Below are positions 5,901-60,203 of a DNA stretch of 64,000 bases, piece after piece. The notes beneath the pieces were generated by a model. The model was given only the letters and a program-made list of their open reading frames with translations. It did not search any database and was not told the DNA's origin. Positions within the stretch are counted from its first letter, which is position 1. Each line of letters opens with the position of its first letter. This stretch comes from a virus: positions 22,839 to 86,838 of the IMG/VR virus record IMGVR_UViG_3300049491_000357; one strand, written 5' to 3'. A program made the position numbers and the translations under genes.

Positions 5901-8549
5901 GTAAAGGGGTTCACCACTGGGGAAGGGTCCTGTGGTGGTGTCCCCAACGACCAGTTGGTCGAAAACAATATTCGCTGTACCTGCCCCTTTTCGCTCCCAA
6001 GGTGCAGGAGATGCCTCAGGGAGCACAGTTGGCAGATAATTGATGAACGACGATTCAACCGTACGCTCCAAAGGAGGGTACGCAATGTGGTGGTAGGGCG
6101 AGTTGAAAAGCAGGAGGTTGGGGTCGTTCCAAAGAGCACTGTAGGCTCTCTCGTAGGCCCTGTACTTCAAGTCACGTTGGAGAGGCTGAGCCAACGTGGC
6201 CTGCATGTCATCAGCCGTGTAGTTGCTCGGCGTAATGAGCACGTTGTTGAACCGATAGTGGTGCCCCGCCACATCGTGGGGGTACCCTTGATCTCGATTC
6301 CAAGCGTTGAGTCGAAATTCCTTTGAATTGAGTCGACGAACTTCAACCGTAGGATTACAGAGGTAGGAGTAGTCCACCTTCACGTCGTCGGTAGACGACG
6401 GAGGGGCCGCCAAGACAATCTGCCCCAGAAGCCCGATAACGGCCAAAACTGGGGTGATGACGTTATTGATCCGAACCACTACATCTGCGGGGTCATCGGC
6501 AATTTCCCCGTTCCGTGGGTCGTAAACCTCCCAAGTTGTAGCGGCCTGCATTCCATCAGGGGAGTGCAGGTTGGCCTTTACTCGGATCTGCGTCGGAGAG
6601 AGCCACGCTGAGATCTGGAACGTCCCAGAGTTAGCTGCGCTGACCCCCAATATGATGTAGAGCCCGACCACAGTCGGAGAAAGAGAACCCCCCGTCAACG
6701 TCAACGTCGTAGGGTCATTGATGACCACCCCAAGACCCGTCTGAATCGTCAAGGGTGGCTTCGAGATGGGCCCACGATCAACGAAGATAGATCGTATGGT
6801 TAGAGGTACACTCGTCGTGAAAGCCGCTGCGTTATACGAGGGATCGAGCGGGTTGCCTGCAATGTCCTTCGGCGTACCTGAGGCATTGACGAAAACCTCG
6901 TAGAAGCCAACCCCAAAGCCGATCGTCTTCAAAAAGACAGAAGAGTCGTCCAGGGTCTCCACCGATTGAACGGTGACTGAGGTAGGACCAGAGATGGTGT
7001 ACTCAGCCGGATCTGTGAGAGCAAAGTCCGCCCTCATTGGCTGATCGAACGTAACAACAACCCCACCCTCCTCAGGTTCGAACTCGATCCCCAGTACCCT
7101 AGGCTGAGAGGATACGGCAGCGAACTCCGTGTGGAACGAGAGGGTCCCAGTCTGCTTTTTACGGAGGTCGTCCGCAGCCAGCTCATACCTCTTCCCATTC
7201 GTTGGCTTGCTAATGGTGAGGATGACGGCCTGAACTGCTCCCGACAATACCCACGTAAGTTGCCCATTTCGAGGGTCAGACGTGAAGAAGGGGAGGTCTA
7301 CAGCTAGACGAGTCGGAGTGAGGACGTCCTCAACCCGAGCCAGGACATTGGGGTTGTACTCAGAGTCCTCGAAAAATACGTAGTCCCCCACTTCCACAAA
7401 GCCCAAGGGAAGATCCCTGAGTTCTAGAAACTGAGAGTGGATTGGAAGTGACGGTGACTCAGCATCCGTAATCGTCAGAAGGTCTCGACGATGGATGATG
7501 GCCAAAGATTCATGTACGGTAAGACGCTCTCCAAGCGTGACTCCCGTCCCAGTGACGGGGGGAGCATCATCAATGACCCCCTGAACCCCCTTGACCTTTG
7601 CACGCTGGATGGGGGTTACACGGTCAATACGAATCGGGACACCCCCATCCACGGGCCGGAGACGATAACGAAGAAGATCAAGCGCATCTTCGATTCGAAT
7701 TTCAGTCGGGAATGTGAGGCGAAGCGTGAAGTCGTCCAAGGACTCCACGAAGATGGCCTCCAATGCCACCACTTCAGCGATCGAAAGACTTTCCTGGGGC
7801 CCTACCGTAAGGGATGCCACAGGGGTTGCCCCCTCTGTTACGACAAGGGACTCTGCGATCTGAACGACATTCTCAACCAGCAGCATCTCTGTGATGCTGA
7901 GGGTCTCTGAGACCACTACCTCGCCACCTTCTGTGGCATCAGAAAGTTCGGTGATGGTCAGAGACTCTGACAATGGAACAAGGAATGTCCCACCTGTCGG
8001 AACCATCGCTTCCGTGATGGTCAAAGACTCCGCAAGCCCAACAGGCGGAGCACCCTTCGTGCCTGTAACCCCCTCAGTGATCGTCAGAGACTCAGAGAAG
8101 TTATGTACGTTCGGGAAGAACGCCTTCTGGGTCTCCGTGATGGTAAGAGACTCGAAGATGTTGACCGGAGGATGAACGACTGGGGGGATAACTACACCCC
8201 CAATATCGAGCGTAAACGCCCCCAGCTTACCCGCAGAGAAGCTTGTGGCTTCAATCGTGTACGACCCAGGAGGCAGATGCGGAATCTGGATAAGAGCTTG
8301 AAATCCAGGCCCTGAGTCATCGTCTTCGTAAAGAACCGTTCCCGTGAAGCTGGTCCCCTGAAGCAGGTACAGGTAGGTGTCCGTGAACCCCGTACCCGTC
8401 ATCTGAATAACTACATCAGTGGCCCCATTGGTGACCGTGAACGTGTAGAACTTGGCGTATGCTGCCCTGTGCGTCGAGGAACAAGTTGCCGTCAACGCAT
8501 CCGAAATCGGACCGCCATTGACAGAAATAGGAGTCAGAGCACACGCCAC
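2922..8549 (-). CDS. Giant 1875-residue modular fibre/adhesin-like protein
   Basis: The modules I can see, in order, are: residues about 25-120, a PPC-like beta domain (TFTVTNGATDVVIQM, then YTIEATSFSAG, closing with FTLDIGG); about 128-255, seven short repeats of the ESLTITE type; about 270-640, Ig-like segments with phrases such as VVVTFDQPMRADFALTDPAEY; then several lectin-like or LamG-like blocks with the cue HSFRI...VRVYFDGE; and a copy of a beta module (LNDPLADFVVAGVLVGDQ) shared with the 2065-residue protein. The start is a GTG at 8549 with GAGG about 7 nt upstream, overlapping the previous gene by 16 nt. Lectin-like folds suggest glycan binding on the host surface, by inference. No protease or hydrolase motif was seen. 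Confidence 0.9.
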   Translation of the reverse strand: MACALTPISVNGGPISDALTATCSSTHRAAYAKFYTFTVTNGATDVVIQMTGTGFTDTYLYLLQGTSFTGTVLYEDDDSGPGFQALIQIPHLPPGSYTIEATSFSAGKLGAFTLDIGGVVIPPVVHPPVNIFESLTITETQKAFFPNVHNFSESLTITEGVTGTKGAPPVGLAESLTITEAMVPTGGTFLVPLSESLTITELSDATEGGEVVVSETLSITEMLLVENVVQIAESLVVTEGATPVASLTVGPQESLSIAEVVALEAIFVESLDDFTLRLTFPTEIRIEDALDLLRYRLRPVDGGVPIRIDRVTPIQRAKVKGVQGVIDDAPPVTGTGVTLGERLTVHESLAIIHRRDLLTITDAESPSLPIHSQFLELRDLPLGFVEVGDYVFFEDSEYNPNVLARVEDVLTPTRLAVDLPFFTSDPRNGQLTWVLSGAVQAVILTISKPTNGKRYELAADDLRKKQTGTLSFHTEFAAVSSQPRVLGIEFEPEEGGVVVTFDQPMRADFALTDPAEYTISGPTSVTVQSVETLDDSSVFLKTIGFGVGFYEVFVNASGTPKDIAGNPLDPSYNAAAFTTSVPLTIRSIFVDRGPISKPPLTIQTGLGVVINDPTTLTLTGGSLSPTVVGLYIILGVSAANSGTFQISAWLSPTQIRVKANLHSPDGMQAATTWEVYDPRNGEIADDPADVVVRINNVITPVLAVIGLLGQIVLAAPPSSTDDVKVDYSYLCNPTVEVRRLNSKEFRLNAWNRDQGYPHDVAGHHYRFNNVLITPSNYTADDMQATLAQPLQRDLKYRAYERAYSALWNDPNLLLFNSPYHHIAYPPLERTVESSFINYLPTVLPEASPAPWERKGAGTANIVFDQLVVGDTTTGPFPSGEPLYWARPIDLTFPAVFAATWQVQINAVTVFEGVWSGLAVGFSDSKKAIVVGYVEVAGVKQVGILKRGFGNDPSQVTAWTGGLSGNTSTGLPADLDWTLLHSFRIFQANGVVRVYFDGEIVENLRVLEDELPFLEELNDPFNQVQNVYFGSLSRPAVNQSTWDFVRYLILPTNPYQTAPSVFVSYEGNDFPETATPPWTPVGYHGNESIVTSSALQVDSTSATDLATEAAVGLVGGDFRGFLRIEPLLAVSSDVILDVNVQLLTETHGITPNAVMAAIDDGKRLLQLCFFPGKAAPKFSYGGRSFPQDFLPTPWTPLGGSAVEMIGRTLRINDTSLTDGRVYFRDDVAGVGTDARIVDATTDWMFEFKCHVRSHTPDPGGFSGVQCSVYDGSRDLGLLFLDIAGVRYVAPHSEGSLLPGPVQFPFEWDDDEPHILRMVKTGGTITVMADGALLGTVPYVNFSGVVGPATGIISWGSSTPISMGATSNVDWFYANIWRVLPSTQKWVGFWKGTDSDSLIGYHLPLTANGVGAAVVGNVLNDPLADFVVAGVLVGDQLVIDNGSNKGVYTIGSVTPTTLTVSSVITFPVQPSIVNYRVPQEVDWTVPHKYRIARVPDGNLTLILDSTPQPLITIGYNELEVPPSSAGVPTVLSGGLPCIAWGAFDPTNLSSTLWDFVRYGITRSPSELRIAPHHQILNQRNVMASPEHLYTSIPHSHTDYWSSSTGIPPQTTPDFFQNPLLVAYTLLNEGTPLVPSTQSTDVQVPTPTTEFVSSFNSIEDLMNFDGDFKFNDGSVRHTLKIPDDVLYTSLVVTEKSVGEQNLITPFCDSCETPDWGTLYWTKEVCLVYDGAVLPENSGNTPAWQLVSDVPANVSATPFSGVLTYATTGPTRTVYRNPTSLPDSLSLVTEVKFRMRVLQDTTLGLGDSQVRLGFSSSAGFTLSLAFVTTPLGERYVLLVDQNTLAVLGGIPFDWYDGAFHDYKLTRDPATASVLISIDS
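7767..8165 (-). repeat. Seven-unit ESLTITE-type coding repeat
   Basis: Seven units of about 60 nt encode an acidic heptad-like core: ESLTITE four times, then SETLSITE, ESLVVTE and ESLSIAE, each followed by a variable linker of 10-15 residues. The DNA cores (plus strand GTGATGGTCAGAGACTC and variants) are recognisably related but diverged, so this is an old protein repeat and not a recent expansion. It lies in the N-terminal part of the 1875-residue protein and is probably an extended stalk. Confidence 0.85.
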
Positions 8550-42608: not shown

Positions 42609-43220
42609 CTATCTCCGGAATCGCTGGTACTCTTTTTCGGCCCAGGCAAGCTGCTTTGGGGAAAGCAGTCCTTTGTAGCGAACCAACCGTTGTAGCATGT
42701 CCGCGAAGATGCTTGCATTTGGAGACCTCGACTGGGAAAGCGCCTCCAGCATCTCGATCTGCCGCTCCTGCTCAGATTTTGCCTGCTCAGGATTGTTCTC
42801 GATGTACTTCTTCTGCTCCTCACGAACGGTAGTCATCTGCTCCGACTTCTGCCGTTCTTCCTTCGAGTCCTCAAAGATCTCGATGGCGTCCTCGATTCGT
42901 GAGCGGAGGTTGTCCCTCCAATTCATCGTGCGGTGGACACGCTGCATCTTGCCCGCGATTGGACGATCGGTCTTCAGGTTGATGAGGGTCACACGAATCG
43001 AGTCTTCCCCCTCACCACGAGCGTTGGCCCCATCAAAGATCGAAGTCTGGACCTTGATGACGTTGTTCGGCTCATCGTCGTCAGGCGTCAGGATATAGAC
43101 CCACTCACCCCAGCGGCTCTTCTCTTTCCGAGGACTGAGGGCACGGAAGCCACGACGAATGGCCTTGTCCATGTCCTCCATGGTGATTTGGGTAAACGTT
43201 GCTGCCGCTGTAACGATCAC
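42609..43220 (-). CDS. Unnamed helicase-linked protein (203 aa)
   Basis: The start is GTG 43220, whose first bases overlap the helicase stop (GTGA), preceded by a strong GGAGGTG. The first 120 residues are beta-like with WGEWVYILTPDDDEPNNVIK and SIRVTLINLKTDRPIAGKM; the next 60 are charged helical (SRIEDAIEIFEDSKEERQKS). A longer upstream frame is rejected because it would overlap the helicase gene heavily. Tight coupling suggests that it works with, or is co-produced with, the helicase. No known domain. Confidence 0.85.
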   Translation of the reverse strand: MIVTAAATFTQITMEDMDKAIRRGFRALSPRKEKSRWGEWVYILTPDDDEPNNVIKVQTSIFDGANARGEGEDSIRVTLINLKTDRPIAGKMQRVHRTMNWRDNLRSRIEDAIEIFEDSKEERQKSEQMTTVREEQKKYIENNPEQAKSEQERQIEMLEALSQSRSPNASIFADMLQRLVRYKGLLSPKQLAWAEKEYQRFRR

Positions 43221-46200
43221 GACGCACCTCCACTGAAGTCGTAAGAGTACCCTTCGGGACCCTCCTCTGGGTCGGGACCCATATCCTGGAAGGCACTCAC
43301 GGCCCAATCGCCTTGGGAGGCAGTCTTTGGCGTCCCATCCTCGCTCTCGCTTTGGATGTTCTCCCCTGGTTTGAGGTCCGCCTCGTACACAAAGGAGCTG
43401 ATGCCTGCCGGTTTCCCACCCAGAGAATTGGGGCATACGATCCGAAGGTTTTTTGCGGCACGAGTCAAAGCAACGTACCCCAGACGGCGTTCGTCCTCCC
43501 AACGCTCCTGTTCCTTCACCGGATCGGGAGGAGGATCTCCAGGCTTTGGTTTGAACTCGATAGGGAACTTACCCCTTGGCATCTGAACATAGACGTTCTT
43601 CCACTGGGCTCCCTTGACCGAGTGGACAGTCCCAACATAGACACCCGGGGGCCGTCGCCGTTGCTCGGGCGGGAGAGCCTCTTGCTCCTTGTTCCACTTG
43701 TCTGTGTCAGTACGAAGGTCACGCATTCTAGTTGCGTACCTGGACATTTTATTGGCGAACCCGATCGGCGTCGTGGGGGGAGAAAGGGAGTCCCCTTCAT
43801 CCGTGGGGTCAGGTTCCGCCAACTGGTAGAGGAAAGAGACGTTACCAAGGCCCTTGGTCTCGTCCTTCTCCTCGTCCTTCTCCTCGTCCTCGTTATCGTC
43901 GTCAGGCTCATCTCCGCCCATGGCGTTACGAAGATTCGTCTTGAGACTCTCACGGAAGGTTTGATCCACTACCTGGCCATCTTCAAACGTAACACCCTTG
44001 ATCTCCAGGATGTCATCGAAAAGATCTGTGGTCTTGTAGTCAGGGTCACTTGTTCGAACCTTCATGTCTTGAAGGGTGTAGAGAAGGTCTTTGACCTTCT
44101 CCTCAAACTTGTAGCCCTTCCCTGTTCGAGTGAGCTTGGCCAAAGCAGTGGCCAAAATCCGCACGAAGGTGATGTCCTCAAGGGCAGCCAGCGGATTGAT
44201 GCTCTTAGCACTAGTTCCTTTGATACGAGCATACTGGGAAAAGCACTCTTCGATCGCCTCAGGGGCTTTCTTGGGGTCGCTGAGGAAGAACCGATTTGGG
44301 TTGTTGATGACAGCACCAAGAGACTTCTGAGCCTTCTCGAAGTCTGTCCCTGTCACGAGCTGCACATACCCGAGAACCGCAGCCGTTTCAGGGGACCCCA
44401 AGAACGAACCTGACCCTCGGCGAGCATAGGGGATCCCACGGATGATACAGGCCGTCTCGTATGAGTTCAGCTCCTTGTTCGTTCGACACAGGATGGCGTT
44501 GTCTGTGAGGTCCCCCCCGAGGACTTGGTCTTGCTTGATTTCGTTGATCGTGGAAATGGCAGCATCAGCCTCATCCGCAGGTCTACTGACTCGAATGCTC
44601 CCAACCCCACGTTTCCGATCAGGGGCAGGAACTTGGGGGATAGGAACGTTCCCCTCGTTTTGGGAGATGAGATTGTTGGCAGCGTCAACGATCTCGGGTT
44701 CGCAACGGTAATTTGTGCGAATCACACGAGTCTTCCAACCCTCTTTCTCGAAAATATCCTTGAAAAGCGAAGCCTTGGCTCCCTGGAAAGAGTTGATCGC
44801 CTGCTTGTCATCTCCGACGATCCAAACGGACTTCCCGTCAGCACCATCTGTGATGTGCTCGGACATCATATCGATGATGTCCGCCATGAGCCCGTTTCGG
44901 TCTTGGGCTTCGTCCACAATGATGTGGTCGAACATGCCTTGAACCTTGCGGCGTACAGCTGGGTCTCGCTTCAAGATGTCTCGGTACATCTTGAGCATGT
45001 CCGTGAAGTCTCCCAGCCGTTGGCCGTTCGCCCGGAACCTCGCCATGAAGCCTTCGTACGCCTTCGTTTGGCAAGGGGGCTTCCAGTTAGGGGTAACGCC
45101 CTTCAACCCCTCATAGATCTCATACCACTGGGCAGTCAGTTTCTCCTCTTGGGTGGTGGCTTCCGCAGCCGCTTGTTGTGGTGAGATGTCATTTCCAGAC
45201 CACTTCGTCTTGTTCATCACAGCGGTCTTCAACTTGGGCGCAGGACCGAGCTTTTCCTTGTAGCAGTCCTCCCAAATCTTCTGGACAGCGTAGGCGATTT
45301 TTTCGCCCCCTTGAACGAACCCTGGCCCCAAGGCGTTCTTTTCAGAACCCGTCCCAAACTCCGAGACGAACCGTCGGAAAAGAGAGTGCATGGTCCCCAC
45401 GGACATTTGTTGTAGGGCATCCGCTCCAGCAGAACGTCCGATCTTCTCCTTCAGTTCAGAGGCTGCTTTGCTGTTGAAGCTCGTGACAAGGATCCGGCTG
45501 GGATTCGCCCGCCTGTCACTCACAAGATAGTCCACCCTTGCTACCAAGGTGGTGGACTTCCCAGAGCCAGCTCCAGCAAAGACACCAACACGACCATCTG
45601 TGAGGGCAGCCGCTCGCTGCTCATCGTCGAGCTTTCGAAGAGACTCAGGGACGTTTTGGGGATTGTCTGGGTCACTCGTGACAGCCGCAGCCGTCGCCGC
45701 AGCCACACCAATGACCTCAGATCGAGTCAGGGGCTTGTCTTCCTCCCCTGACTTGACGATCGCCTTCTTGGCCGTTTCTGTGGCGGCCACCTCAATCTCT
45801 CCCAGACGCTCGGCCCGAGCGTCTGAGGCAGCCACAGCTCGCTCAGATGCAAGGTCACCACCATCTTGACGAACTCGATCCCCAAGAAGCTTTGTCGTTG
45901 CGTCAGTGGCCCCCTTCGTGGCTTCCTGTACAGGGTTGATGATGGCAGTGCCAGGCTGCACCACCGCAGACGCCTCATCAATCCAAGCCTCTAGTCGCTT
46001 GTTCTTCAGAACGAGGGCGGAGAACTTGTTGAGGGCAGCATCGGCATCCTCAATCATCGAGGCTTCGATTGCTTCCTGTACCTCACGACGAGCTTTCGTT
46101 GACGTCCCAAAGACAGCCTTCGTTGTCGTGGTCCCACCCTTGGAGAGGACCGTACGAAGTTTCAACGCTCGAACTGAGGCCCCCTTGGGCGTCGGAGGCG

Positions 46201-46495
46201 GACGCATAGCCGCTTCAAGCAAAGCAATACTGGCCTTTGAGACCAAGTTCGACTTGATGAATGATGTAATCACATCAAGATTCTGACGCTCAGCGAAACG
46301 TAGAAGGGTTAGCCCTTTTTGAAGGGTCTGAGACTCTTCTGGGTTGGGATCTCCCGACTCATCGAGGTACCGCATGAAGGTATCAAGAGCGAACAAAAAT
46401 ACCACATAGTCCGCAATGACCAACTCTTGAAGGCCAATATCCTCTTCCTCAAGATTGGCTTTTCTCGACGGGGCTGAGTAGTCGTAGGTGAGCAT
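43217..46495 (-). CDS. SF1 helicase, UvrD/Rep-type (1092 aa)
   Basis: All core motifs are present in order: Q-like LDDEQRAAALT (about 290), Walker A GAGSGKSTT (about 307-315), Ia TSFNSKAASELKEKIG, II IIVDEAQDRN (DEAQ, about 525), III VGDDKQAINSFQGA, IV RTNYRCEPEIVDAAN, V TVHSVKGAQWKNVYV, VI YVALTRAAKNL. It is therefore probably an active 3'-5' DNA translocase. An extra N-terminal region of about 290 residues, helical and Ala/Glu/Lys-rich, precedes the core and is not part of standard UvrD/Rep (about 670-720 aa). An acidic stretch DEPDDDNEDEEKDEEKDE lies at about 850. ATG 46495 is favoured over an upstream start by GAGGT about 8 nt upstream. Confidence 0.95.
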   Translation of the reverse strand: MLTYDYSAPSRKANLEEEDIGLQELVIADYVVFLFALDTFMRYLDESGDPNPEESQTLQKGLTLLRFAERQNLDVITSFIKSNLVSKASIALLEAAMRPPPTPKGASVRALKLRTVLSKGGTTTTKAVFGTSTKARREVQEAIEASMIEDADAALNKFSALVLKNKRLEAWIDEASAVVQPGTAIINPVQEATKGATDATTKLLGDRVRQDGGDLASERAVAASDARAERLGEIEVAATETAKKAIVKSGEEDKPLTRSEVIGVAAATAAAVTSDPDNPQNVPESLRKLDDEQRAAALTDGRVGVFAGAGSGKSTTLVARVDYLVSDRRANPSRILVTSFNSKAASELKEKIGRSAGADALQQMSVGTMHSLFRRFVSEFGTGSEKNALGPGFVQGGEKIAYAVQKIWEDCYKEKLGPAPKLKTAVMNKTKWSGNDISPQQAAAEATTQEEKLTAQWYEIYEGLKGVTPNWKPPCQTKAYEGFMARFRANGQRLGDFTDMLKMYRDILKRDPAVRRKVQGMFDHIIVDEAQDRNGLMADIIDMMSEHITDGADGKSVWIVGDDKQAINSFQGAKASLFKDIFEKEGWKTRVIRTNYRCEPEIVDAANNLISQNEGNVPIPQVPAPDRKRGVGSIRVSRPADEADAAISTINEIKQDQVLGGDLTDNAILCRTNKELNSYETACIIRGIPYARRGSGSFLGSPETAAVLGYVQLVTGTDFEKAQKSLGAVINNPNRFFLSDPKKAPEAIEECFSQYARIKGTSAKSINPLAALEDITFVRILATALAKLTRTGKGYKFEEKVKDLLYTLQDMKVRTSDPDYKTTDLFDDILEIKGVTFEDGQVVDQTFRESLKTNLRNAMGGDEPDDDNEDEEKDEEKDETKGLGNVSFLYQLAEPDPTDEGDSLSPPTTPIGFANKMSRYATRMRDLRTDTDKWNKEQEALPPEQRRRPPGVYVGTVHSVKGAQWKNVYVQMPRGKFPIEFKPKPGDPPPDPVKEQERWEDERRLGYVALTRAAKNLRIVCPNSLGGKPAGISSFVYEADLKPGENIQSESEDGTPKTASQGDWAVSAFQDMGPDPEEGPEGYSYDFSGGAS

Positions 46496-46511
46496 CCTGA
46501 TTACCTCAATC

Positions 46512-46754
46512 CTATAGGAGAAAAGCAAAAAAGCTACTTGCTAGGAGCCAATACCCCTTCATCAATGAGTCTCCCCAGCAAGCTTTTGTGAGTGCTTCTC
46601 GTCGATTTGCCTCACAAGCCTCGGAACGAATTCGAGTCCCTGGGAATTGGCCACGATACGACTCGGCCGTGACTCCATGCACCGCCTTGAGATGGCGGGC
46701 CAGAGTCACGGCCGAGTGTTCGCACAGAAGACATAGAACGTGGTCTTCGGGCAT
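46512..46754 (-). CDS. Ros/MucR-like C2H2 zinc-finger protein (80 aa)
   Basis: Residues 8-26 read CLLCEHSAVTLARHLKAVH: C8-x2-C11-x9-H21-x4-H26. This is followed by GVTAESYRGQFPG, matching the Ros/MucR finger ending HHGLTPEEYRAKWG-type. The C-terminal end is hydrophobic (WLLASSFFAFLL), possibly a dimer or membrane segment. Members of this family act as transcriptional regulators in alphaproteobacteria and many phages. The gene stands just before the helicase and just after the sheath gene. A perfect 15-bp inverted repeat lies inside it. Confidence 0.85.
   Translation of the reverse strand: MPEDHVLCLLCEHSAVTLARHLKAVHGVTAESYRGQFPGTRIRSEACEANRREALTKACWGDSLMKGYWLLASSFFAFLL
46661..46717. promoter_or_regulatory. 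Perfect 15-bp inverted repeat inside the zinc-finger gene
   Basis: ACTCGGCCGTGACTC (46661-46675) and GAGTCACGGCCGAGT (46703-46717) are perfect complements with a 27-nt loop. On the minus-strand mRNA the stem lies in the codons for the finger residues. It could be an operator for autoregulation, a strong mRNA hairpin, or chance constraint by codons; no other coding region in the window shows a comparable arm length by eye. Confidence 0.8.
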
Positions 46755-46786: not shown

Positions 46787-49700
46787 TCAGTCCTTTATTC
46801 TTATTTCTGCCTGCCCTAAGATTCTTGCCCTGAGGTTGAAAGTCAGAATGATGTACAAAAGTGGGAAGATTGGCTGGTAGTACGCCTCAAACCTCATGAC
46901 CGTGGGGTCATCAGGGTCGATCGAGGATGTGATACCCGTGAAGGCCCCAACGATCTCCGCCTGAAGCAGTCCCTTGAAGAGGGTCGTCATCGTGACGTTA
47001 ACCTCGTTCGTTCGGCTAGCCAAGAACTTCGTCCCAATGAAGGCATCAAGGACAATACGGCTCTGCTGCTGGACGAAGTCAGCGATCTGCGTGACTGTTG
47101 GAAGTCGCGTCAGAACGTTGCTCATGTTGGTGGTGAGACCCTGTCGAACCCGGATGATGGGGTCAAGGTCCTCAAGCAGGGTGATACCTGCCACCGCCGT
47201 CTGGTTTGCCTCAACAGGGTCGAGGATGCGTGGGATCCGAGTGAATCCAACGATGTTACGCCGCGTGTATGGGGTTGCCACGTCCACGGCTGGCGAGACC
47301 ACAGCTCCTGACATCGCCGCAGCGAAGAAGGTGCCGTCGACAAGCTGTTCGAAGTTCTGACCCAATTCGTCAGTCAAAGTGATGACCGCCGAATCCGGGT
47401 AGAACGCTACCATACGATTCGAGTTGAGAGCCCGTGCGATAGCCTGAGCACTCAAAGGGGTCGTCCCAGAGGCGAACCCAATGAAGCCCATACGTTCTGC
47501 TTGAGCCCGAATCGTGCTCTGGGTCTCGACGTGCTGTGTGAGGTACGAGTACACCGCAGTCGAGGTTGCCAGAGGCACCAAGAGGTCAGGCTTGATGTTG
47601 CCCGGCAGCGGAGTGGCCAGCCCATCGATTGCCGCGATGAAGCTCTGGTCACTCGCTTGGTTCGTGTTCGGAACCTTGAGGACCTGCTTCACCCCAACGA
47701 GAAGGGCTCCGTTGAGGATCGCAAGGTACGCACCCAACGTTGCACGGTTTTCGCCGGAGGCTTTCCCAAAGGTCGCTTCGATCGTCTTGAGCTGACGGTA
47801 GAGGCGGGTCGAAAAGTCCTGCTTCAAGTACAGGTAACTGATGAAGTAGAAGTCACCGACCTTGGGTTCAACCCCACCTGGGTTGAACGTCTGGAGTGAA
47901 GCGGTGTCATTCACCGCAACCCCAACCGTGTTGTACACGAGGGTCTCCAAACCTGGAACCGCGTAGAACGGTCGGCTTGGATCCACCATGAAGGTCGGCG
48001 AGACCGTCATGGTGAACGAGCCACCATTCGTGTAGAGACCCGTTGAGGCAGGGAGCACCGTAAACCGGAGGCCCGTGACTGCATCGGTGTACGTCTGCCC
48101 AGGGATACCCGTTCCCGCCGAACCCGAGGGGTTGTTCGACGAGACAGTGTAGATCTGCTGAGCATCTTCCCCGTTATCACCATCCGTACCAGGAGTGATC
48201 TTCGTTCCCGTGGTCACGTTGAAGGCAGAGTTTGCTGCATTCAAGAAGGCAACCGAGGAGGTCGTGAGACCTACTGTGATCGACTCAAACGTGATGTAGG
48301 TCGCGCCATCGAGGGTGGTTGCGTACGCAAACCCATCCACTTGGAAGCCAACCGTGTCCATCAGGACATCAACGACTTCTTGGGGGTTCACGAGAGTCTG
48401 CGACGCAGAGTCATTTTGGTTGAAACCAAGGGTGGCATTTGCGTTGCCATCCAAGATAACCAAACTGCTGGTTGCATCATTGACCGTCGAGAGGAGACGG
48501 AGGTGGTCGAGATTCAGCAGAGTACCTGCTGATGCAACACCCGGGGTCACCGCGTTGACGGCAGCAGCCACAGCCGCTGTGGTTACAGCCACACCAGCAG
48601 GCAATGTGGCTGCGTAGTCTGTCCCGTTCACCCTGTACTTGAAGGTGTCGTTGAGGCCCGTCGTGATGTTGAACGGACCAGCGATTGACCCAAGCAGGGT
48701 GGCGGCCTTGTTGATTGCACCCGTGGTTCCTGCTGAGCCCTGGAAGGCTGTGAAGCCCAAGACCTGCTCAACATTACCCGACTCAATGCGGACAGTTGAA
48801 ACCACATCCAGACCACCAGGGAGAGCCCCAGGGGTCGTCGTGCTCTTGATGATGAACACGATGTCGCCCGTGAGGGGGCCAATCTGGAGGTACGAGGCAA
48901 CAACCGAACCAACCGCAACGTTGATGTCGCTGACGATTTGGGCCGGTGTGCGGTTACCCGCAGTCAGGGCAACCGGATAGACTGTCCCATCAACACTGAC
49001 ATTCAACGTACTCAGAGCGGGGATCGTGATCTTCCCCGTGTCGATACCCGTCTGGATCGGCACAACGTGCCCACCAATCAGGTAGGCGGGAGCCGCCGTC
49101 GCGAGGTTGGTTGTGTAGGTGACCCCGTTGAGCTGCGTTGTCCAGGTTGCCGAGGTTGGGCTGAAGAACGAGTAGGGACCCTGACCCTTGATGGTGTAAG
49201 CTGCGTTTTTCGCAACATCCATCGAGAAGAGGACCGTAACTGTCTCAGAAACCGGGGTCCCAGCACCCGTGTGGAATGCGTCGGGGATCTGCTCAACACC
49301 ACGAGGCCACTGCACAATCTGAGGCAGACCCGTCTTCGACCCAAATCGGGTCTGAAGGAGGTTCGCGTTTTGCGTCGTGGAGAAGACCGTGTACTGTCCA
49401 GCCCCCACAGGTCCAGGCACCGTGCAGGTGAGGAGGTAGGTGTCGTCAACGATCCGGTTGTAGTAGAACGTTGCAAACGCGAACCAATCGGGCGGGACGG
49501 GGTCCTTGAGGGTGACAAGACGATTCACACCGTCAACCGAGATCACCGTTGCAGCTGGTCGATTCAGTGCGTCTCGGAGGTTGCGGCCAACACGAACCAC
49601 CACCAGATCAGGGCGATTCGTAACAACGTCCTGCTTGCCGTTGGTGATCGAGTTGTAGAGCGGTAGCCCCAACGTCGTATCACGCCCGTTACCCGTCGTA

Positions 49701-51052
49701 GGCACTTCGGGCAAGTAGAACTGCGTGGTCGAAACGACAGCAGGGATCGTCGTGTTATTGACGAACCGATCACACTCCCCAAGGTACAGTTTGTCATCGC
49801 TCAACGAAGGGGTGACCTGGGTGTTGTCGAAGGGTTCCGAACCAGGCGTCGTATTCCCAGACGTGACCTGGACGCTGGTGCCCCAGTGCACAACCGACAC
49901 ATCCTCACTTGGGTTTTGGATGACGAAATCCTGCCCCTGGATGTAGTCCGAACGACCTGGTGCAATACCACACCGAAGCACCGTCGTAACGAAGGTGTTC
50001 GGGAGATAGTCGAACGTGTCCTGCCAGGTGTTCGCCCAGTAAGTCACTGTGACGGTCGAACCGAGCGTCGGAGCGAACGATAGGGTAACGGTACCGTTGG
50101 CACCGTCCACCGCAGTGGGGATCGTCTGGATGTTGTTGACCTTGACGACCACCTTTGAGGTGTCGGTCGTTGTGAGACCACCCCCAGAACCGTCCACGAT
50201 GGGGCGGTTGAAGACCTGGAAGGTCTTCTGGCGATTGGTCTTCGTCCCAGGTTGGAAACCAAGAGGTCCGTTTGCGGTGCCAGCCTCGATCTCGATCTCC
50301 TGTGTCGCCGTGAACAACAGGTGATCCAAACCCTGGTTGTCGGTGAAGACGGCGGTTGAGAAGTTCGGGATGAGCGCCGCATCAATCTGCGTCTTCATCC
50401 CGTTGGCAGTAGTCGAACCTGCCGCAAAGATGACCGTGTAGGAGGTGCCGTTCACCTTTAGAGTGAACGTGTCGTTCGACCCCGTAACGATGGCGAAAGG
50501 AGAGAAACCGGGCGTCGTAAGCTGAGCTGCCGTCGAAGTCACCTGTGCCGACACGTCATCCGTGAAGGCAGTGTCCCCTCGATGGAAGAAGTACGTCACC
50601 CGAACCAGGTCGGTCGGCTGCGTCGGGATCTGAAGTGTGACGAGACCCTTCTGGCCATTGACCGCACCCACAGAAACGGGCACACCGTTCACCGTCACTG
50701 TGACGGTTCGGATGTCGTTGGTTACTCGTCCGAAGCCCTGCCCATCAACGATGGGGTAGTTACGAACACGAAACGTCGTACGTGTCCCATCTTGTGCTCC
50801 AAGGATGGGGTTCAAAGGGTTCGTAGCATCTACGATCCAAGACAAGCTCACATCTTCATTGTTGATCTGCTGATCAACAGTGGCAGACGAGCCACGAACG
50901 ATCTCCACGTCGTTCTGGGTCAGTTCTTCCTGACCCACACCAATCACCACAGGGATACGCAATCCCGCAGTGAAGTTGGTGAGATTCGCTTCAGTCAATG
51001 TTCGGGTGTATGCACCCGGCGGGACGTACCCGACGAAAGGCCCCTGAGCCAT
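46787..51052 (-). CDS. Tail sheath protein, oversized (1421 aa)
   Basis: The N-terminus GPFVGYVPPGAYTRTLTEAN is the sheath start signature, and the C-terminus DDPTVMRFEAYYQPIFPLLY, ILTFNLRAR is the conserved sheath end. T4 gp18 has 659 residues; here about 750 are added. Inserted beta modules include NYPIVDGQG (about 99), FNRPIVDGSG (about 281) and LGLPLYNSITNGKQD (about 465), each followed by strand TVTVNG- or VVVKVNN-type, and three flagellin-like units beginning NDTFTLKVNGTSY (about 193), LNVSVDGTVYPVAL and NDTFKYRVNGTDY. The sheath contracts to drive the tube. ATG 51052 has GAGGAGATC upstream. Confidence 0.9.
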   Translation of the reverse strand: MAQGPFVGYVPPGAYTRTLTEANLTNFTAGLRIPVVIGVGQEELTQNDVEIVRGSSATVDQQINNEDVSLSWIVDATNPLNPILGAQDGTRTTFRVRNYPIVDGQGFGRVTNDIRTVTVTVNGVPVSVGAVNGQKGLVTLQIPTQPTDLVRVTYFFHRGDTAFTDDVSAQVTSTAAQLTTPGFSPFAIVTGSNDTFTLKVNGTSYTVIFAAGSTTANGMKTQIDAALIPNFSTAVFTDNQGLDHLLFTATQEIEIEAGTANGPLGFQPGTKTNRQKTFQVFNRPIVDGSGGGLTTTDTSKVVVKVNNIQTIPTAVDGANGTVTLSFAPTLGSTVTVTYWANTWQDTFDYLPNTFVTTVLRCGIAPGRSDYIQGQDFVIQNPSEDVSVVHWGTSVQVTSGNTTPGSEPFDNTQVTPSLSDDKLYLGECDRFVNNTTIPAVVSTTQFYLPEVPTTGNGRDTTLGLPLYNSITNGKQDVVTNRPDLVVVRVGRNLRDALNRPAATVISVDGVNRLVTLKDPVPPDWFAFATFYYNRIVDDTYLLTCTVPGPVGAGQYTVFSTTQNANLLQTRFGSKTGLPQIVQWPRGVEQIPDAFHTGAGTPVSETVTVLFSMDVAKNAAYTIKGQGPYSFFSPTSATWTTQLNGVTYTTNLATAAPAYLIGGHVVPIQTGIDTGKITIPALSTLNVSVDGTVYPVALTAGNRTPAQIVSDINVAVGSVVASYLQIGPLTGDIVFIIKSTTTPGALPGGLDVVSTVRIESGNVEQVLGFTAFQGSAGTTGAINKAATLLGSIAGPFNITTGLNDTFKYRVNGTDYAATLPAGVAVTTAAVAAAVNAVTPGVASAGTLLNLDHLRLLSTVNDATSSLVILDGNANATLGFNQNDSASQTLVNPQEVVDVLMDTVGFQVDGFAYATTLDGATYITFESITVGLTTSSVAFLNAANSAFNVTTGTKITPGTDGDNGEDAQQIYTVSSNNPSGSAGTGIPGQTYTDAVTGLRFTVLPASTGLYTNGGSFTMTVSPTFMVDPSRPFYAVPGLETLVYNTVGVAVNDTASLQTFNPGGVEPKVGDFYFISYLYLKQDFSTRLYRQLKTIEATFGKASGENRATLGAYLAILNGALLVGVKQVLKVPNTNQASDQSFIAAIDGLATPLPGNIKPDLLVPLATSTAVYSYLTQHVETQSTIRAQAERMGFIGFASGTTPLSAQAIARALNSNRMVAFYPDSAVITLTDELGQNFEQLVDGTFFAAAMSGAVVSPAVDVATPYTRRNIVGFTRIPRILDPVEANQTAVAGITLLEDLDPIIRVRQGLTTNMSNVLTRLPTVTQIADFVQQQSRIVLDAFIGTKFLASRTNEVNVTMTTLFKGLLQAEIVGAFTGITSSIDPDDPTVMRFEAYYQPIFPLLYIILTFNLRARILGQAEIRIKD

Positions 51053-51198: not shown

Positions 51199-51636
51199 TT
51201 AGCGGGAGGCACGACTTGTCTGAACTGCGGTAAGAATCTTCTTTGCCCTGTCTTTTCGACTGGCCAACCCAGTGTCGGTCATGGGCTCGTACTCGATGTA
51301 CCCCTCACCTTGGTGCCGGATGAGGGCATGGGTCGCACCCTTTGTTCGAGCTTCGTTCTTCACCTTCTTACGATCCTCATAAGAAGCCCAACGATTTGTA
51401 GCCGAACGCCCGACCGCTTGGTCGGCTGTAGGGTAATCTTCCTTGTGGACTCCTGAGTTGCCAACCTTCTCGGTGGGAACCTGGAACCCAAATGCGAATC
51501 CTTCCCCCTCAAGACATCGGGGAGCGTCTTCACCACACGATGGACACACGAAGGTAGGGTACTCAGCCATCTTCAACATGCGTTCGAATCGACAGTTGCA
51601 GACTTCATTTTGACACTCAAAAACGTAGCGTGGCAT
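51199..51636 (-). CDS. FmdB-like zinc-ribbon protein (145 aa)
   Basis: The first 40 residues read as an FmdB/zinc-ribbon: MPRYVFECQNEVCNCRF, then YPTFVCPSCGEDAPRC, with CxxxxCxC and CPSC pairs (C8, C13/C15, C31, C34). The remaining 100 residues are basic and helical (YEDRKKVKNEARTKGATHAL). FmdB-like ribbons are common small proteins in bacteria and phages, with uncertain roles. The start is the ATG at 51636; the frame extends further but overlaps the upstream gene. It stands directly before the sheath gene. Confidence 0.85.
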   Translation of the reverse strand: MPRYVFECQNEVCNCRFERMLKMAEYPTFVCPSCGEDAPRCLEGEGFAFGFQVPTEKVGNSGVHKEDYPTADQAVGRSATNRWASYEDRKKVKNEARTKGATHALIRHQGEGYIEYEPMTDTGLASRKDRAKKILTAVQTSRASR

Positions 51637-51661
51637 AGGGGGCTCTGATTTGATGAGAGGG

Positions 51662-52798
51662 TTACTTAATTCGTTCGTAATCGTTGTTGCGGCCAGCAAT
51701 TATGGGGAACGTTGCCATGAACATACCAGGGGTTTGCACAACCAAACCGGCCGAACTTGTGGTCTTCTCTGTAGAGACCTTCGATATAGCCAAGGGCAGC
51801 GGGATGTGCATTTCCCAGTCGGATCGAAACTGGAGGCTCAAGGACGCCTGGTAGTAGTTGAGGTCCCCCGTCTCGTCGTAAATTTCTTCACTTTCGCCCC
51901 CGATAGAGATGTCCACTATCTCTATTCCTTCGAACTCCAACAGGGCCTTCTTTTCTGCCCACAGATACATGACCACAAGGTCAGCCAACTCCTCTGTGGC
52001 TACAGCATCAAGAGAGATGACATCGAGGTCGAAACTTACTTCGAACTTACCCCCATAGGCCAAAGCGGCATCGGTTCGGTCAGGACTAACCGCAATCGCA
52101 ACCTTATCTCCAACCTTTGACCGTTTACCAAAGGCCAGCACAACACCAGGAAGCGTAGTGAAGTCGCTTGTATTCCATTGGTACTTAAACGGGCCTCTGC
52201 TCTCCTCCGAAAACCTGTAGTCCGCAGCCACAAGGTCATTTGGGTTGAAACGTACCAAGAATTGAACGGCCCCTGTCTGGTAATCGATGGTGTAGTCGAC
52301 CCCATCCTTGAGGAGAACGCGTTGGTTCAACCACAAACGCACAGTTCCCTGCAAAGGGACATTTTGAAGCTGAGCCTCTCGCTCAATTCCCGACTGAAAA
52401 TGAGCGAGAGGCTCTTCGGTCACAGTGCGTAGAGGGTCTACGGCAAACGAACCGAAGCCCTGAGGGTTCTCAGGCACCTCCAAGATCTCCAAGTAGTAGA
52501 TCCCAGGGGGCGTGGGCATCTGTCCATTGTTGGCCCGCACCGCATTAAGGTCCTCTCGGACCCACTCAATAGGGTAGACAGGCTCCCCAACGTAAGAGAG
52601 CATCACAAAGCTCTCGACGTTACCCATGAAGTTGTCCCCCGACAAGGACACCTTATTGGCGCTTGACCCCTTCACGATGATCCCCATCTGGGGACGTTCT
52701 TTGAAAGAGAAACGGTTTTGGATGTTCGGGGCAACCTTCGAGTAAATCGGATGCCTGCTGAAGCTGTCCTGTAGCTCCAACACCAAACGACGCTTCAA
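51662..52798 (-). CDS. Tail-terminator/neck-like virion protein (378 aa or 386)
   Basis: The product starts at TTG 52798 if a conventional codon is required, but an ATT at 52822 is 4 nt from a strong AGAGGTG Shine-Dalgarno and extends it by 8 residues (IYYYLVSA), while TTG has none. Conserved-looking phrases are DSFSRHPIYSKVAPNIQNRF, VGEPVYPIEWVREDL, TVTEEPLAHFQSGIEREAQL and LADLVVMYLWAEKKALLEFE, with DYTIDYQTGAVQFLVRFNPN in a beta region. It is placed between the actin-like gene and the FmdB-like/sheath genes, where neck or terminator proteins sit. Function is inferred from position. Confidence 0.85.
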   Translation of the reverse strand: MKRRLVLELQDSFSRHPIYSKVAPNIQNRFSFKERPQMGIIVKGSSANKVSLSGDNFMGNVESFVMLSYVGEPVYPIEWVREDLNAVRANNGQMPTPPGIYYLEILEVPENPQGFGSFAVDPLRTVTEEPLAHFQSGIEREAQLQNVPLQGTVRLWLNQRVLLKDGVDYTIDYQTGAVQFLVRFNPNDLVAADYRFSEESRGPFKYQWNTSDFTTLPGVVLAFGKRSKVGDKVAIAVSPDRTDAALAYGGKFEVSFDLDVISLDAVATEELADLVVMYLWAEKKALLEFEGIEIVDISIGGESEEIYDETGDLNYYQASLSLQFRSDWEMHIPLPLAISKVSTEKTTSSAGLVVQTPGMFMATFPIIAGRNNDYERIK

Positions 52799-52836: not shown

Positions 52837-52854
52837 CAGGTCACTCAGGTCACT
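52837..52854. repeat. 9-bp tandem repeat giving two in-frame stops
   Basis: CAGGTCACT is present twice without a gap at 52837-52845 and 52846-52854. The repeat puts a second in-frame TGA (52841-52843) nine bases after the stop of the actin-like gene (52850-52852). Confidence 0.7.
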
Positions 52855-53860
52855 CAGAGTACTCTTCACCGGCCAACACAAGAAGCCCCTCCGCAACAGC
52901 GGTCATAGGGTCACTGGCCATGCGGATCTCAGAGATGGGGATCGGAAAACCACGCTTGTTAACCAGAGCGTACTCTTCTCGGAAAACCTCTTCGAACCCC
53001 CCTGCCTTGGTGGTTCCACCCGAAATGACGAACGGGATGGGGTCTGGGAGGCTGATCGTATTGGCCGCCTGTCGGAACTGGGCTGCGATGTTCTCCAGAC
53101 AGTACCTAATGAGAGCCCTGACGTAGAGAACGATGGCTTCTTCTTCTCGGTTCTTGGGGTTGAGAAGGTCGACCCCTTTTTCCTTCACGGCACACATACG
53201 TGAAGCGGTTGAACCTAGGGCTTTTGCCGCGTGATTGTCGATGTAGTCCCCACCCCGAGCGAGCGAGAACTCCAACCCCTTCACGGTTTGATAAGCCAAG
53301 GCAACATTGCACATACCTGAGCCGAAGCTGACAGCCAGTCCGCTAAACTGCTCAGCAGCACACTGGCTGTAGATGATCGCCATTGCTTCATTCATCGGAT
53401 GGGGGGTGTACCCGTGCTCCGATAGAATCTTGCGGAAAACCTCTGTGTGGTAAACCACATCCTGGTTGGGGTCATCCAGTGGGGAGGCAGGCACGCTGTA
53501 GTAGCAGTGCTCTCGCTCCGTAATCGGCTCGGAGAGAACGTTGAAGATGAGCAACGACAAGATCTTTTGTGCTGACATCTCTCCGGCCGCAATAACCCCA
53601 CGGCTAAGAGGTCGACGCACTTCCTGTTTGAAGAGGTTGGCCATCGTGAGAGCTGAGTCGCCCAACACGACCAATGACCCCTCCTCCTCAACGTACGAGA
53701 CCTTGGACAGCTTCAGGGTTTTCTTCGCCTCAAGCTCAAGATCAATGAAAGCGTCTCGAACACGCTTTGTCGTTGTACGCCCGGCTTCAGTTGTACGGGC
53801 TGACACGATATTCATCGTGCCAATATCGAGTCCTACCCCAGGCTTGTTCTCAGATGCCAT
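52850..53860 (-). CDS. Actin-like ATPase (336 aa)
   Basis: The actin/Hsp70/ParM core is visible: phosphate-1 GVGLDIGTMNIVSA (D12, G14), phosphate-2 region LAVSFGSGMCNVAL (177-188), connect-1-like NEAMAIIYSQ (157-166), and adenosine loop PFVISGGTTKAGGF (276-289). In phosphate-2 the usual D-x-G-x-G is SFGSG, so S178 replaces the usual Asp. The start is ATG 53860 with GGAGATC upstream; a longer form would overlap the preceding gene. Phage actin-like proteins are known to form filaments in DNA segregation or positioning. This one sits directly after a Dps-like gene in a virion cluster, so a filament or assembly role is possible but unproven. Confidence 0.9.
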   Translation of the reverse strand: MASENKPGVGLDIGTMNIVSARTTEAGRTTTKRVRDAFIDLELEAKKTLKLSKVSYVEEEGSLVVLGDSALTMANLFKQEVRRPLSRGVIAAGEMSAQKILSLLIFNVLSEPITEREHCYYSVPASPLDDPNQDVVYHTEVFRKILSEHGYTPHPMNEAMAIIYSQCAAEQFSGLAVSFGSGMCNVALAYQTVKGLEFSLARGGDYIDNHAAKALGSTASRMCAVKEKGVDLLNPKNREEEAIVLYVRALIRYCLENIAAQFRQAANTISLPDPIPFVISGGTTKAGGFEEVFREEYALVNKRGFPIPISEIRMASDPMTAVAEGLLVLAGEEYSE

Positions 53861-53888: not shown

Positions 53889-54623
53889 TTACTTCTTCCA
53901 CGCCGAGTCATTCGGCAGGGGGATACCCGAGGATGAGAACTTCATCGTCGTATCGAGCTGAGTGCGTTGCTTGAACAGATAGATCAACGTCTCGTGTTCA
54001 TCCGCATATCCTTGCAGTAGGTTGTCTGTCCCAGGCGTAAGTACATCTTGGGCCTTCAAAGCGGCGTAGGCGAGGTCAAAGACCTCCATGAACCCCAGCA
54101 CAGCCAAGAAGGAGCATTGAACCATGACTTCGGCAGAAGCCGAAGTTGAGTTTGGGGCCTCACGGTAGATGACCTGCGTGTACCTTTGCATCATATTGAC
54201 TTGATGCAAAGGTTCGACCAAGGAAGGGACCCCCAAGCCAACCGCTCGTTCGGCAAGCCCATCCACCATCTCAAAAGTAGTATTGTAGGCTCGATCAAAA
54301 AGCTGATGGTCGGCGTAAAACTGCGGCCCACTTGTCGCCCAATGATGGGATTGGTGCAGTTGAGCCTCTGCCCTAAGAACAGCCAAAAGAACAGCTAGCT
54401 CTGCTGCCTTCGACCCTTTTTGGAAAAGAGGCAACGACTGACCAAAGAACTGCCGAAGGGCCTGCTTGAACACATCTGCCTGATTGGCCCGAACTCCCAA
54501 AGAAGCTGTTTTGGCCTGCTTTCGGGAGACTTCAGGCTGAGCGGGTAGATACGGAGGTCCGTCCCGAAAAGGGTCAAACGCAAGCGGGTCGACCAGAATT
54601 GTTCGATCCGAAGGAGCAGTCAC
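53889..54623 (-). CDS. Dps/ferritin-like protein (244 aa)
   Basis: The start is GTG 54623 overlapping the previous stop. The core reads AEAQLHQSHHWATSGPQFYADHQLFDRAY, then MVDGLAERAVGLG, and EHETLIYLFKQRTQL at the end. With H94 as reference, H106, D110, D121 and E125 are at +12, +16, +27 and +31, exactly the ligand spacing of Listeria innocua Dps (His31, His43, Asp47, Asp58, Glu62). This suggests an intact intersubunit ferroxidase site and iron or peroxide handling. An N-terminal extension of about 75 residues precedes the Dps core (Dps is about 155-170 aa). It could bind DNA or protein or be a virion component. It is followed by the actin-like gene after 28 nt. Confidence 0.9.
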   Translation of the reverse strand: MTAPSDRTILVDPLAFDPFRDGPPYLPAQPEVSRKQAKTASLGVRANQADVFKQALRQFFGQSLPLFQKGSKAAELAVLLAVLRAEAQLHQSHHWATSGPQFYADHQLFDRAYNTTFEMVDGLAERAVGLGVPSLVEPLHQVNMMQRYTQVIYREAPNSTSASAEVMVQCSFLAVLGFMEVFDLAYAALKAQDVLTPGTDNLLQGYADEHETLIYLFKQRTQLDTTMKFSSSGIPLPNDSAWKK

Positions 54624-54889
54624 TTCTCTGCCTTGGCATCAGACTTCAGTTCCTTGGTCACATCCCCCATGTTGAACTTCTCGGGCTTTGCCGAGAAGGA
54701 CTTGCCCGAGTACGGGGACTTGACCGTTGTCTTCTTCTCCGTGAGGTAGAAGTCTTTACCCGAGTCGGGGTCCGTGTACTTGAACAGGGTGGGCACCGAA
54801 GTCTTTGGCGTCGCCTGCTGCTTCTTGGCGGCAAGACGACCCACAAGGTCATTGGTCTGGGTCAGGATGGAAGCTTGACGAGGGTGCAT
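54620..54889 (-). CDS. Small basic protein (89 aa)
   Basis: It starts at ATG 54889 after AGGAGAC (5 nt spacing). The sequence has a Gln/Thr/Ala N-terminus, then PTLFKYTDPDSGKDFYLTEK, TVKSPYSGKSFSAKPEKF and an EL-SDAKAE end. It is Lys/Ser/Thr-rich, of beta-hairpin type in the middle, with no cysteine. It overlaps the Dps-like gene by 4 nt (GTGA). No family was recognised. Confidence 0.8.
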   Translation of the reverse strand: MHPRQASILTQTNDLVGRLAAKKQQATPKTSVPTLFKYTDPDSGKDFYLTEKKTTVKSPYSGKSFSAKPEKFNMGDVTKELKSDAKAEK

Positions 54890-59073: not shown

Positions 59074-59307
59074 CTACACCGACTTCTGTCGATTTCTCTC
59101 CTTACATCGAGCACACGGCAAAAAGTAGACGAACGCCTGTTTTTCAGACCCTACCGCAATGAGTCTGCCCTTCCAAATTCGAATGCCGACAAGCGTCTGA
59201 CCCAAGGCCCGAAACTTCGACTGGGCATCTTCAGCAGCCTTGATGGCCGCCCCCATAGCCCTCAGGTCCAATGAGTCGTCAGCGTCAACCGGAACCCCAA
59301 GGATCAT
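59074..59307 (-). CDS. Small protein with C-terminal CxxC (77 aa)
   Basis: It starts at ATG 59307, overlapping the stop of the preceding gene (ATGA). Helix LRAMGAAIKAAEDAQSKFRA is followed by strand TLVGIRIWKGRLIAVGSEKQ, AFVYFLPCARC and a basic tail KERNRQKSV. The PCARC pair with Lys/Arg could bind zinc. No function is assigned. Confidence 0.8.
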   Translation of the reverse strand: MILGVPVDADDSLDLRAMGAAIKAAEDAQSKFRALGQTLVGIRIWKGRLIAVGSEKQAFVYFLPCARCKERNRQKSV

Positions 59308-60203
59308 ATGCCCATGAATTTGCGGGGGGACAAAACACCACGTCCCACATAGGGACCAAAGGCTGAGCGAATACCCATCCCATAGCGAGGCTGTTGAAGC
59401 CCACGAATGATATTGACCGTTGCTTTGGCCTTTTCAATCTGCTTGTCGAACTGCTCACTTGCGGATGAGGCAGCAGACTCGTACTTACTAGCCTTGTCAA
59501 TACTGAGGCTGATGCCTCCGATCGAGTAATCGAACTCGTCTGCAATCCAGTTGATCCGAACAGCATTCAGGGCCCAGTACATTGCCCCAGTGAGCAACAA
59601 ACTCTTCCATGCCGGATATTGGCCGCCCATCTGGTCCAAGCTTTGGAACGCGGTATACGGTGGATAAAGAGCAATGGAGTTCATGCTTTGCTCAAGGTAC
59701 TCCTTCAACTCATCGTCAAGCCAGATGTACCCAAAGACCTTGTTGAACTGTCGGACCGTCTCTTCGTGAGTGGGAGGCCGGAAGTGGTAGTTCCGATCAG
59801 GGTTGTTGTCACGAAGAAGGGTGCGGAGCCGACGCACAAGATCTGCTTCAGTGACCGTCAGAGGGCTCGTCACCAAAGAGGCACTCGTCACCTGATCAAT
59901 GATATTGAACTCTTGCACGACTCTTTGAATAGGCCCGCTAACCGTTTCTCGGAACTGCCAACGAATTCGATAAGCACCAAGGTTCGCATCGAGAGGGATG
60001 ATGATGCTTGCAAAGTACTCTCCGACCGAAGGGTTGGCAGGAGTTCTCTGGGGGCTCCCAAGAAGTACCTCCGAACCGGTCGTGAAGTCGTACATAGCGT
60101 AGGAAATCTCAGCGGCGTTAACCGGAGTCCCGTTGGCGTTCGTAAGGAAAATGTCGAGCCCACCACGACCAAGTTGCTGCCCTTTGTAGAATGCCGTGCT
60201 CAT
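59304..60203 (-). CDS. Connector/neck-type virion protein with beta N-terminus (299 aa)
   Basis: Residues 10-105 form a beta sandwich: GRGGLDIFLTNANGTPVNAA, then VGEYFASIIIPLDANLGAYR and FRETVSGPIQRVVQEFNII. Residues 115-300 are helical: TVTEADLVRRLRTLLRDNNP, LKEYLEQSMNSIALYPPY, SLLLTGAMYWALNAVRINWI and a C-terminal Arg/Gly-rich tail. The DNNPDRNYHFRPPTHEE hinge is distinct. The layout fits a connector or neck protein joining capsid-related and tail genes. Moderate confidence in the role. Confidence 0.85.
   Translation of the reverse strand: MSTAFYKGQQLGRGGLDIFLTNANGTPVNAAEISYAMYDFTTGSEVLLGSPQRTPANPSVGEYFASIIIPLDANLGAYRIRWQFRETVSGPIQRVVQEFNIIDQVTSASLVTSPLTVTEADLVRRLRTLLRDNNPDRNYHFRPPTHEETVRQFNKVFGYIWLDDELKEYLEQSMNSIALYPPYTAFQSLDQMGGQYPAWKSLLLTGAMYWALNAVRINWIADEFDYSIGGISLSIDKASKYESAASSASEQFDKQIEKAKATVNIIRGLQQPRYGMGIRSAFGPYVGRGVLSPRKFMGI

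Follow-up and report, generated by a model that had tools for sequence, protein, structure and literature searches.

A Dps-family gene beside a volactin-like actin gene in the tail operon of one lineage of jumbo phages

The dps gene and its operon

The window, by which we mean the whole 64,000-nucleotide stretch that was analyzed, belongs to an IMG/VR virus record of 86,838 bp and carries on its minus strand a dps gene (53889..54623) that encodes a protein of 244 amino acids from a GTG start codon. The first-pass annotation, made from the sequence alone, had given exactly these coordinates and left the strand (54623..53889) unstated. The GTG start overlaps the stop codon (GTGA) of an 89-residue open reading frame (ORF) that abuts dps upstream (54620..54889, minus strand). 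A scan for promoters and terminators around dps found sites no more numerous than in shuffled sequence.

Immediately downstream, 28 nt past the dps stop codon, begins the gene for an actin-like protein of the volactin family (52850..53860, minus strand), assigned by Pfam (PF25216, E = 3.7e-70) and by synteny, with a Met start at 53860 and a GGAGA Shine-Dalgarno sequence before it. This immediate neighbor had been missed previously. Beyond it, on the same strand, lie the genes for a conserved operon protein of 378 amino acids with weak DUF2460 similarity (51662..52798), for a zinc-ribbon operon protein (51199..51699; Pfam Zn_ribbon_8, E = 6e-6, below the cut-off) that is kept in 102 loci, and for a large protein of 1421 amino acids (46787..51052) that its relatives identify as the tail sheath. 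Two members of its family match the tail-sheath group PHROG 2839 (at best with E = 1e-23), and tblastn leads to proteins annotated as tail sheath in Tunturi_5 and phage G; the sheath protein has no direct match in the PDB. A gene for a UvrD-like helicase of 1103 amino acids (43217-46528, minus strand; PHROG 1967, E = 2e-80) adjoins the sheath gene downstream, within the tail region.

The gene had been described as lying between neck and sheath genes. The sheath half of that description stands, downstream of dps and by way of relatives, and the neck half is weakly supported: a possible head-tail connector of 299 amino acids (59304..60203, minus strand) matches a connector family (PHROG 17327) at E = 0.003 and other matches on that side are to virion structural PHROGs (E = 0.004 and 1e-12). 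The AlphaFold2 model of the 299-residue upstream protein (pLDDT 69, pTM 0.40) was too poor to give it a neck identity. Since dps sits in the structural (tail) region, the protein is probably synthesized late, as had been supposed.

Dps fold and ferroxidase ligands

The reading of the protein as Dps-like was borne out by Pfam, PHROG, AlphaFold2, and PDB matches, which make it a true member of the Dps family. It passed the Pfam Ferritin model (PF00210) with 25.6 bits against a cut-off of 24.5 and matched the phage Dps family PHROG 3636 (E = 6e-13), while a profile of 59 sequences, compared with the PDB, matched solely Dps-family chains and Dps-derived scaffolds, at an E value of about 1e-14 to Dps. 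Against the NCBIfam equivalogs for bacterial Dps (NF006975, NF052461, and NF041388), it scored 24 to 28 bits, far under the cut-offs of 114 to 300, and we therefore regard it as a relative of Dps rather than as an orthologue of bacterial Dps. A scan of cellular genomes (84,980 species) returned one weak relative only, from a MAG. The dN/dS ratio of close pairs, 0.07 to 0.19, indicates purifying selection.

A fold other than a four-helix bundle had been named as grounds for abandoning this assignment. The AlphaFold2 model predicts the bundle, with helices at residues 74-96, 102-129, 164-191, and 197-226 and a pLDDT mostly above 90 (about 95 in the core), together with a Dps-type BC-loop helix at 138-152 and a further confident helix at 46-66. 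The top Foldseek matches of this model are all Dps, with a probability of 1.00, and its helix A begins at residue 74, in agreement with the N-terminal extension of 75 residues noted earlier. The identity of the enzyme as a Dps-type mini-ferritin is well supported. Among BFVD models, Dps-like domains also occur within proteins of uncultured tailed phages that are annotated as prohead protease or ParB.

The ferroxidase ligand segment, found by alignment to Listeria innocua Dps (PDB 1qgh_A), spans residues 94-125 (54249..54344, minus strand), counting the GTG codon as residue 1. Its proposed ligands H94, H106, D110, D121, and E125 do correspond to His31, His43, Asp47, Asp58, and Glu62 of the reference, ungapped and at a constant offset of 63. 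BLASTP aligns the two proteins across this segment with E = 9e-7 and places a gap of one residue immediately ahead of the Trp; the ungapped register was read from the two sequences and is backed by the model and the family alignment. Of the 365 ORFs of the window, dps alone has the spaced pattern H-x11-H-x3-D-x10-D-x3-E. The pattern is missing from all 11,838 non-Dps ORFs taken from the window and related loci, and shuffling the Dps protein 200,000 times reproduced it twice; these ORF counts and shuffles rule out a chance match.

Four of the ligands are invariant in all 55 distinct operon-linked relatives, and the fifth is Asp or Glu in 48 of them and Met, Gln, or Ala in the other 7. The same four are invariant in 19 unlinked relatives, where the fifth is Gln in 15, so that four ligands are invariant in 74/74 proteins; mean identity within the linked family is 42%. 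Together with the dN/dS values, this conservation is the pattern expected of a functional ferroxidase site and, as far as sequence can tell, points to a protein that is probably active.

Position in the operon and the N-terminal tag

Scans of IMG/VR with the neighbor protein and with Dps yielded 132 loci; their contigs measure up to 529 kb. In the lineage to which the window belongs, one of jumbo phages with a contractile tail, 51 distinct contigs extend far enough upstream to be judged. In 50 of these, dps immediately precedes the volactin-like actin gene, and the sheath gene (about 1,400 to 1,550 codons) follows about 3 kb downstream of dps. The gap between dps and the actin gene is mostly below 50 nt; it is wider in eight contigs, and in one of these, L002, it is occupied by an HNH-like endonuclease gene. 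HNH-like endonuclease genes directly upstream of the actin gene are found in two different phages (L002, 1199-2050; L056, 6933-7889).

Both genes are single-copy: one such Dps was counted per genome in 20/20 records, and one volactin-like gene in 15/15. Protein distances co-vary, with a Mantel r of 0.65 between Dps and volactin and of 0.67 between Dps and sheath (0/2000 permutations as high); for volactin and sheath, r is 0.63. For this lineage, the fixed position and the co-inheritance rule out a host-derived auxiliary gene of sporadic occurrence. In the Dps tree, a set with weak support holds 54 of the 55 linked proteins and also one unlinked protein. Because the linked proteins nearly form one group, relocation into the tail operon may have been a single event, within the weak support that this tree gives.

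In a sister lineage, whose actin is 51 to 59% identical to that of the window, the operon is kept but dps is absent from it (0/23); at least six genomes of that lineage, among them the 485-kb LR745208, have a Dps located elsewhere. A volactin-family protein like that of the window (52850-53860) is also encoded, once per genome, in the tail operon of the sister lineage. One sister-lineage Dps forms the N terminus of a long ORF in which KLAH.HPEFR.DLLP segments recur (L146, 238-1980). At locus L024, dps is missing, although a homologue of the 89-residue upstream ORF is present (86 amino acids). The same locus holds a homologue of a 450-residue operon protein that is enlarged to 877 amino acids by an apparent intein with a homing-endonuclease domain (3729-6362). 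As neither L024 nor the sister lineage has dps at this place, the gene is not required for building the tail.

These observations also bear on whether the ferritin fold serves here only as a building block of the tail or neck, its metal site being a relic or a structural feature. The constant place of the gene within the tail operon and the loss of the fifth ligand in 7 of the 55 linked proteins would suit such a role, but it leaves unexplained why four ligands stay invariant throughout the 74 proteins at so low an identity and why L024 and the sister lineage keep the rest of the operon without dps there. We consider it improbable.

The N-terminal extension carries a conserved motif at residues 9-27 (ILVDPLAFDPFRDGPPYLP; 54543..54599, minus strand), found in 52 of the 55 volactin-linked Dps proteins. 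This tag has the consensus hW.DP..[YF]D....GPPYLP and is followed by a variable linker; the window copy has Leu at the tag position that is Trp in most relatives. The GPPYLP part is likewise present in 52/55 linked proteins and absent from unlinked ones, and the linked copies that the tag search left unmatched are those of L002, L039, and L118, the last being truncated by the contig end. A DNA scan of 18 genomes found GPPYLP in 13, always once and within dps. A general sorting signal common to many phage proteins is ruled out by this confinement of the tag pattern to dps.

Over the 55 relatives, the extension has a median net charge of -2 and its conserved motif part one of -3; the linker of the window copy has a net charge of +6. 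A Lys/Arg-rich tail of the DNA-binding type is not conserved in the family. A Dps that condenses DNA, packing or protecting the phage genome by its N-terminal tail as in Escherichia coli, would draw on family membership and on the basic linker of the window copy; against the acidic conserved part of the extension and the want of a conserved basic tail across the relatives, it appears very improbable. An acidic conserved motif followed by a variable linker suggests protein docking over DNA binding, and the tag may be the docking element for a putative partner from the same operon.

The chief rival to a tethered cage is an ordinary soluble Dps of late infection, which would guard phage and host DNA inside the cell from iron and peroxide chemistry, the operon setting the timing of its synthesis and the motif acting locally by capping the cage or stabilizing the subunit. 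Dps proteins are known from Lactobacillus phages (PMC6669764) and from gut "Gratiaviridae" and others (PMC8008677), and a protective role of this kind has been proposed for the Lactobacillus and gut phages. The Dps genes of other phages lie in nucleotide-metabolism or mixed regions, and those of the sister lineage lie elsewhere in its genomes, which also agrees with a soluble protein. However, timing alone cannot account for a position fixed in 50/51 contigs combined with a tag confined to the linked proteins, and we give a soluble Dps a real but lesser chance.

Proposed role and comparison with known systems

We favor, with a probability of roughly 0.55, a working ferroxidase cage that is made with the tail proteins and tethered through its N-terminal tag to a phage partner encoded in the operon. 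A predicted cage of 12 Dps subunits would oxidize Fe(II), probably with H2O2, at sites between subunits composed of His/His/Asp and Asp/Glu. Translation of dps would go along with that of the tail-morphogenesis proteins, after the 89-residue protein and before the volactin-like actin and the sheath. The tag and linker would then tether the cage to its operon partner, where it could scavenge iron and peroxide at the assembling tail or particle, and the cage might be retained on the virion. We infer that the subunits form a cage with ferroxidase activity, that this cage docks, and where it does so; the tail-operon position and the tag suggest a site of action within or upon the virus particle during its assembly. 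A more specific version, in which the WxDP..GPPYLP tag fixes the cage to the tail or neck, the particle carries a ferroxidase and maybe also an iron core, and a phage actin takes part in tail assembly, is unlikely in our estimate.

Phage Dps is usually regarded as a host-derived helper against oxidative stress. Phage Dps itself is already known; the novelty lies in a gene that keeps one place in the tail operon, in a tag specific to the lineage, and in the association with a volactin-like actin. In the open-access literature, we found no earlier report of Dps in jumbo-phage structural modules. Phage tails have reportedly been proposed to contain iron in what is called the "Ferrojan horse" idea. 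With dps fixed in a tail-building operon of jumbo phages and its metal site intact, a virion-borne iron enzyme becomes a testable question. The job of the actin-like protein in these tail operons is a second one; the literature searched held no phage role for a volactin-family protein. Among 50,697 phage records, there was no cultured relative carrying this operon, and the volactin-like actin was encoded only by the uncultured LR745208 and LR756511.

Known phage Dps proteins of the PHROG 3636 type come from Lactobacillus phages Lb338-1 and Semele, Salmonella phage 7-11, Aeromonas phage LAh_6, cyanophage S-SRM01, Escherichia phage SU10, and "Gratiaviridae." They have the Dps domain and the ligand region in common with the window protein, but identity is at most 40% and the alignment is confined to the domain. 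In the cultured phages that we checked, dps lies among nucleotide-metabolism and replication genes or miscellaneous genes, outside a tail operon; the unlinked Dps of the sister lineage and of cultured phages are either outside the tail module or without the tag. The Dps of SU10 is encoded by a middle gene, yet mass spectrometry detected the protein in the phage sample (PMC4281155).

Short unlinked Dps proteins of jumbo phages (L109, L121, L122, L123, L129, and L133, among others) are about 30 to 40% identical to the window protein and have the four invariant ligands in common with it, but they are 164 to 206 amino acids long, lack the tag, have Gln as the fifth ligand in 15/19, and come from contigs without volactin. 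At the loci named, the unlinked dps adjoins a phage-encoded Cpn60-like chaperonin gene. Bacterial Dps proteins (L. innocua, 1qgh; Nostoc Dps4, 5hjh; Pseudomonas aeruginosa PA0962, 8ff9) share with the window protein the four-helix bundle, the BC helix, and the five ligand positions, whereas identity is about 20% and the window protein has an additional N-terminal extension of about 73 to 75 residues with the acidic tag. The DNA-condensing Dps of the E. coli type is distinguished by a basic, Lys-rich N-terminal tail, a feature that this family does not have. Finally, the neighbor of dps is a member of the Pfam Volactin family, like volactin of Haloferax volcanii, an actin that makes dynamic filaments (PMC10869688), but it is encoded in a phage tail operon.
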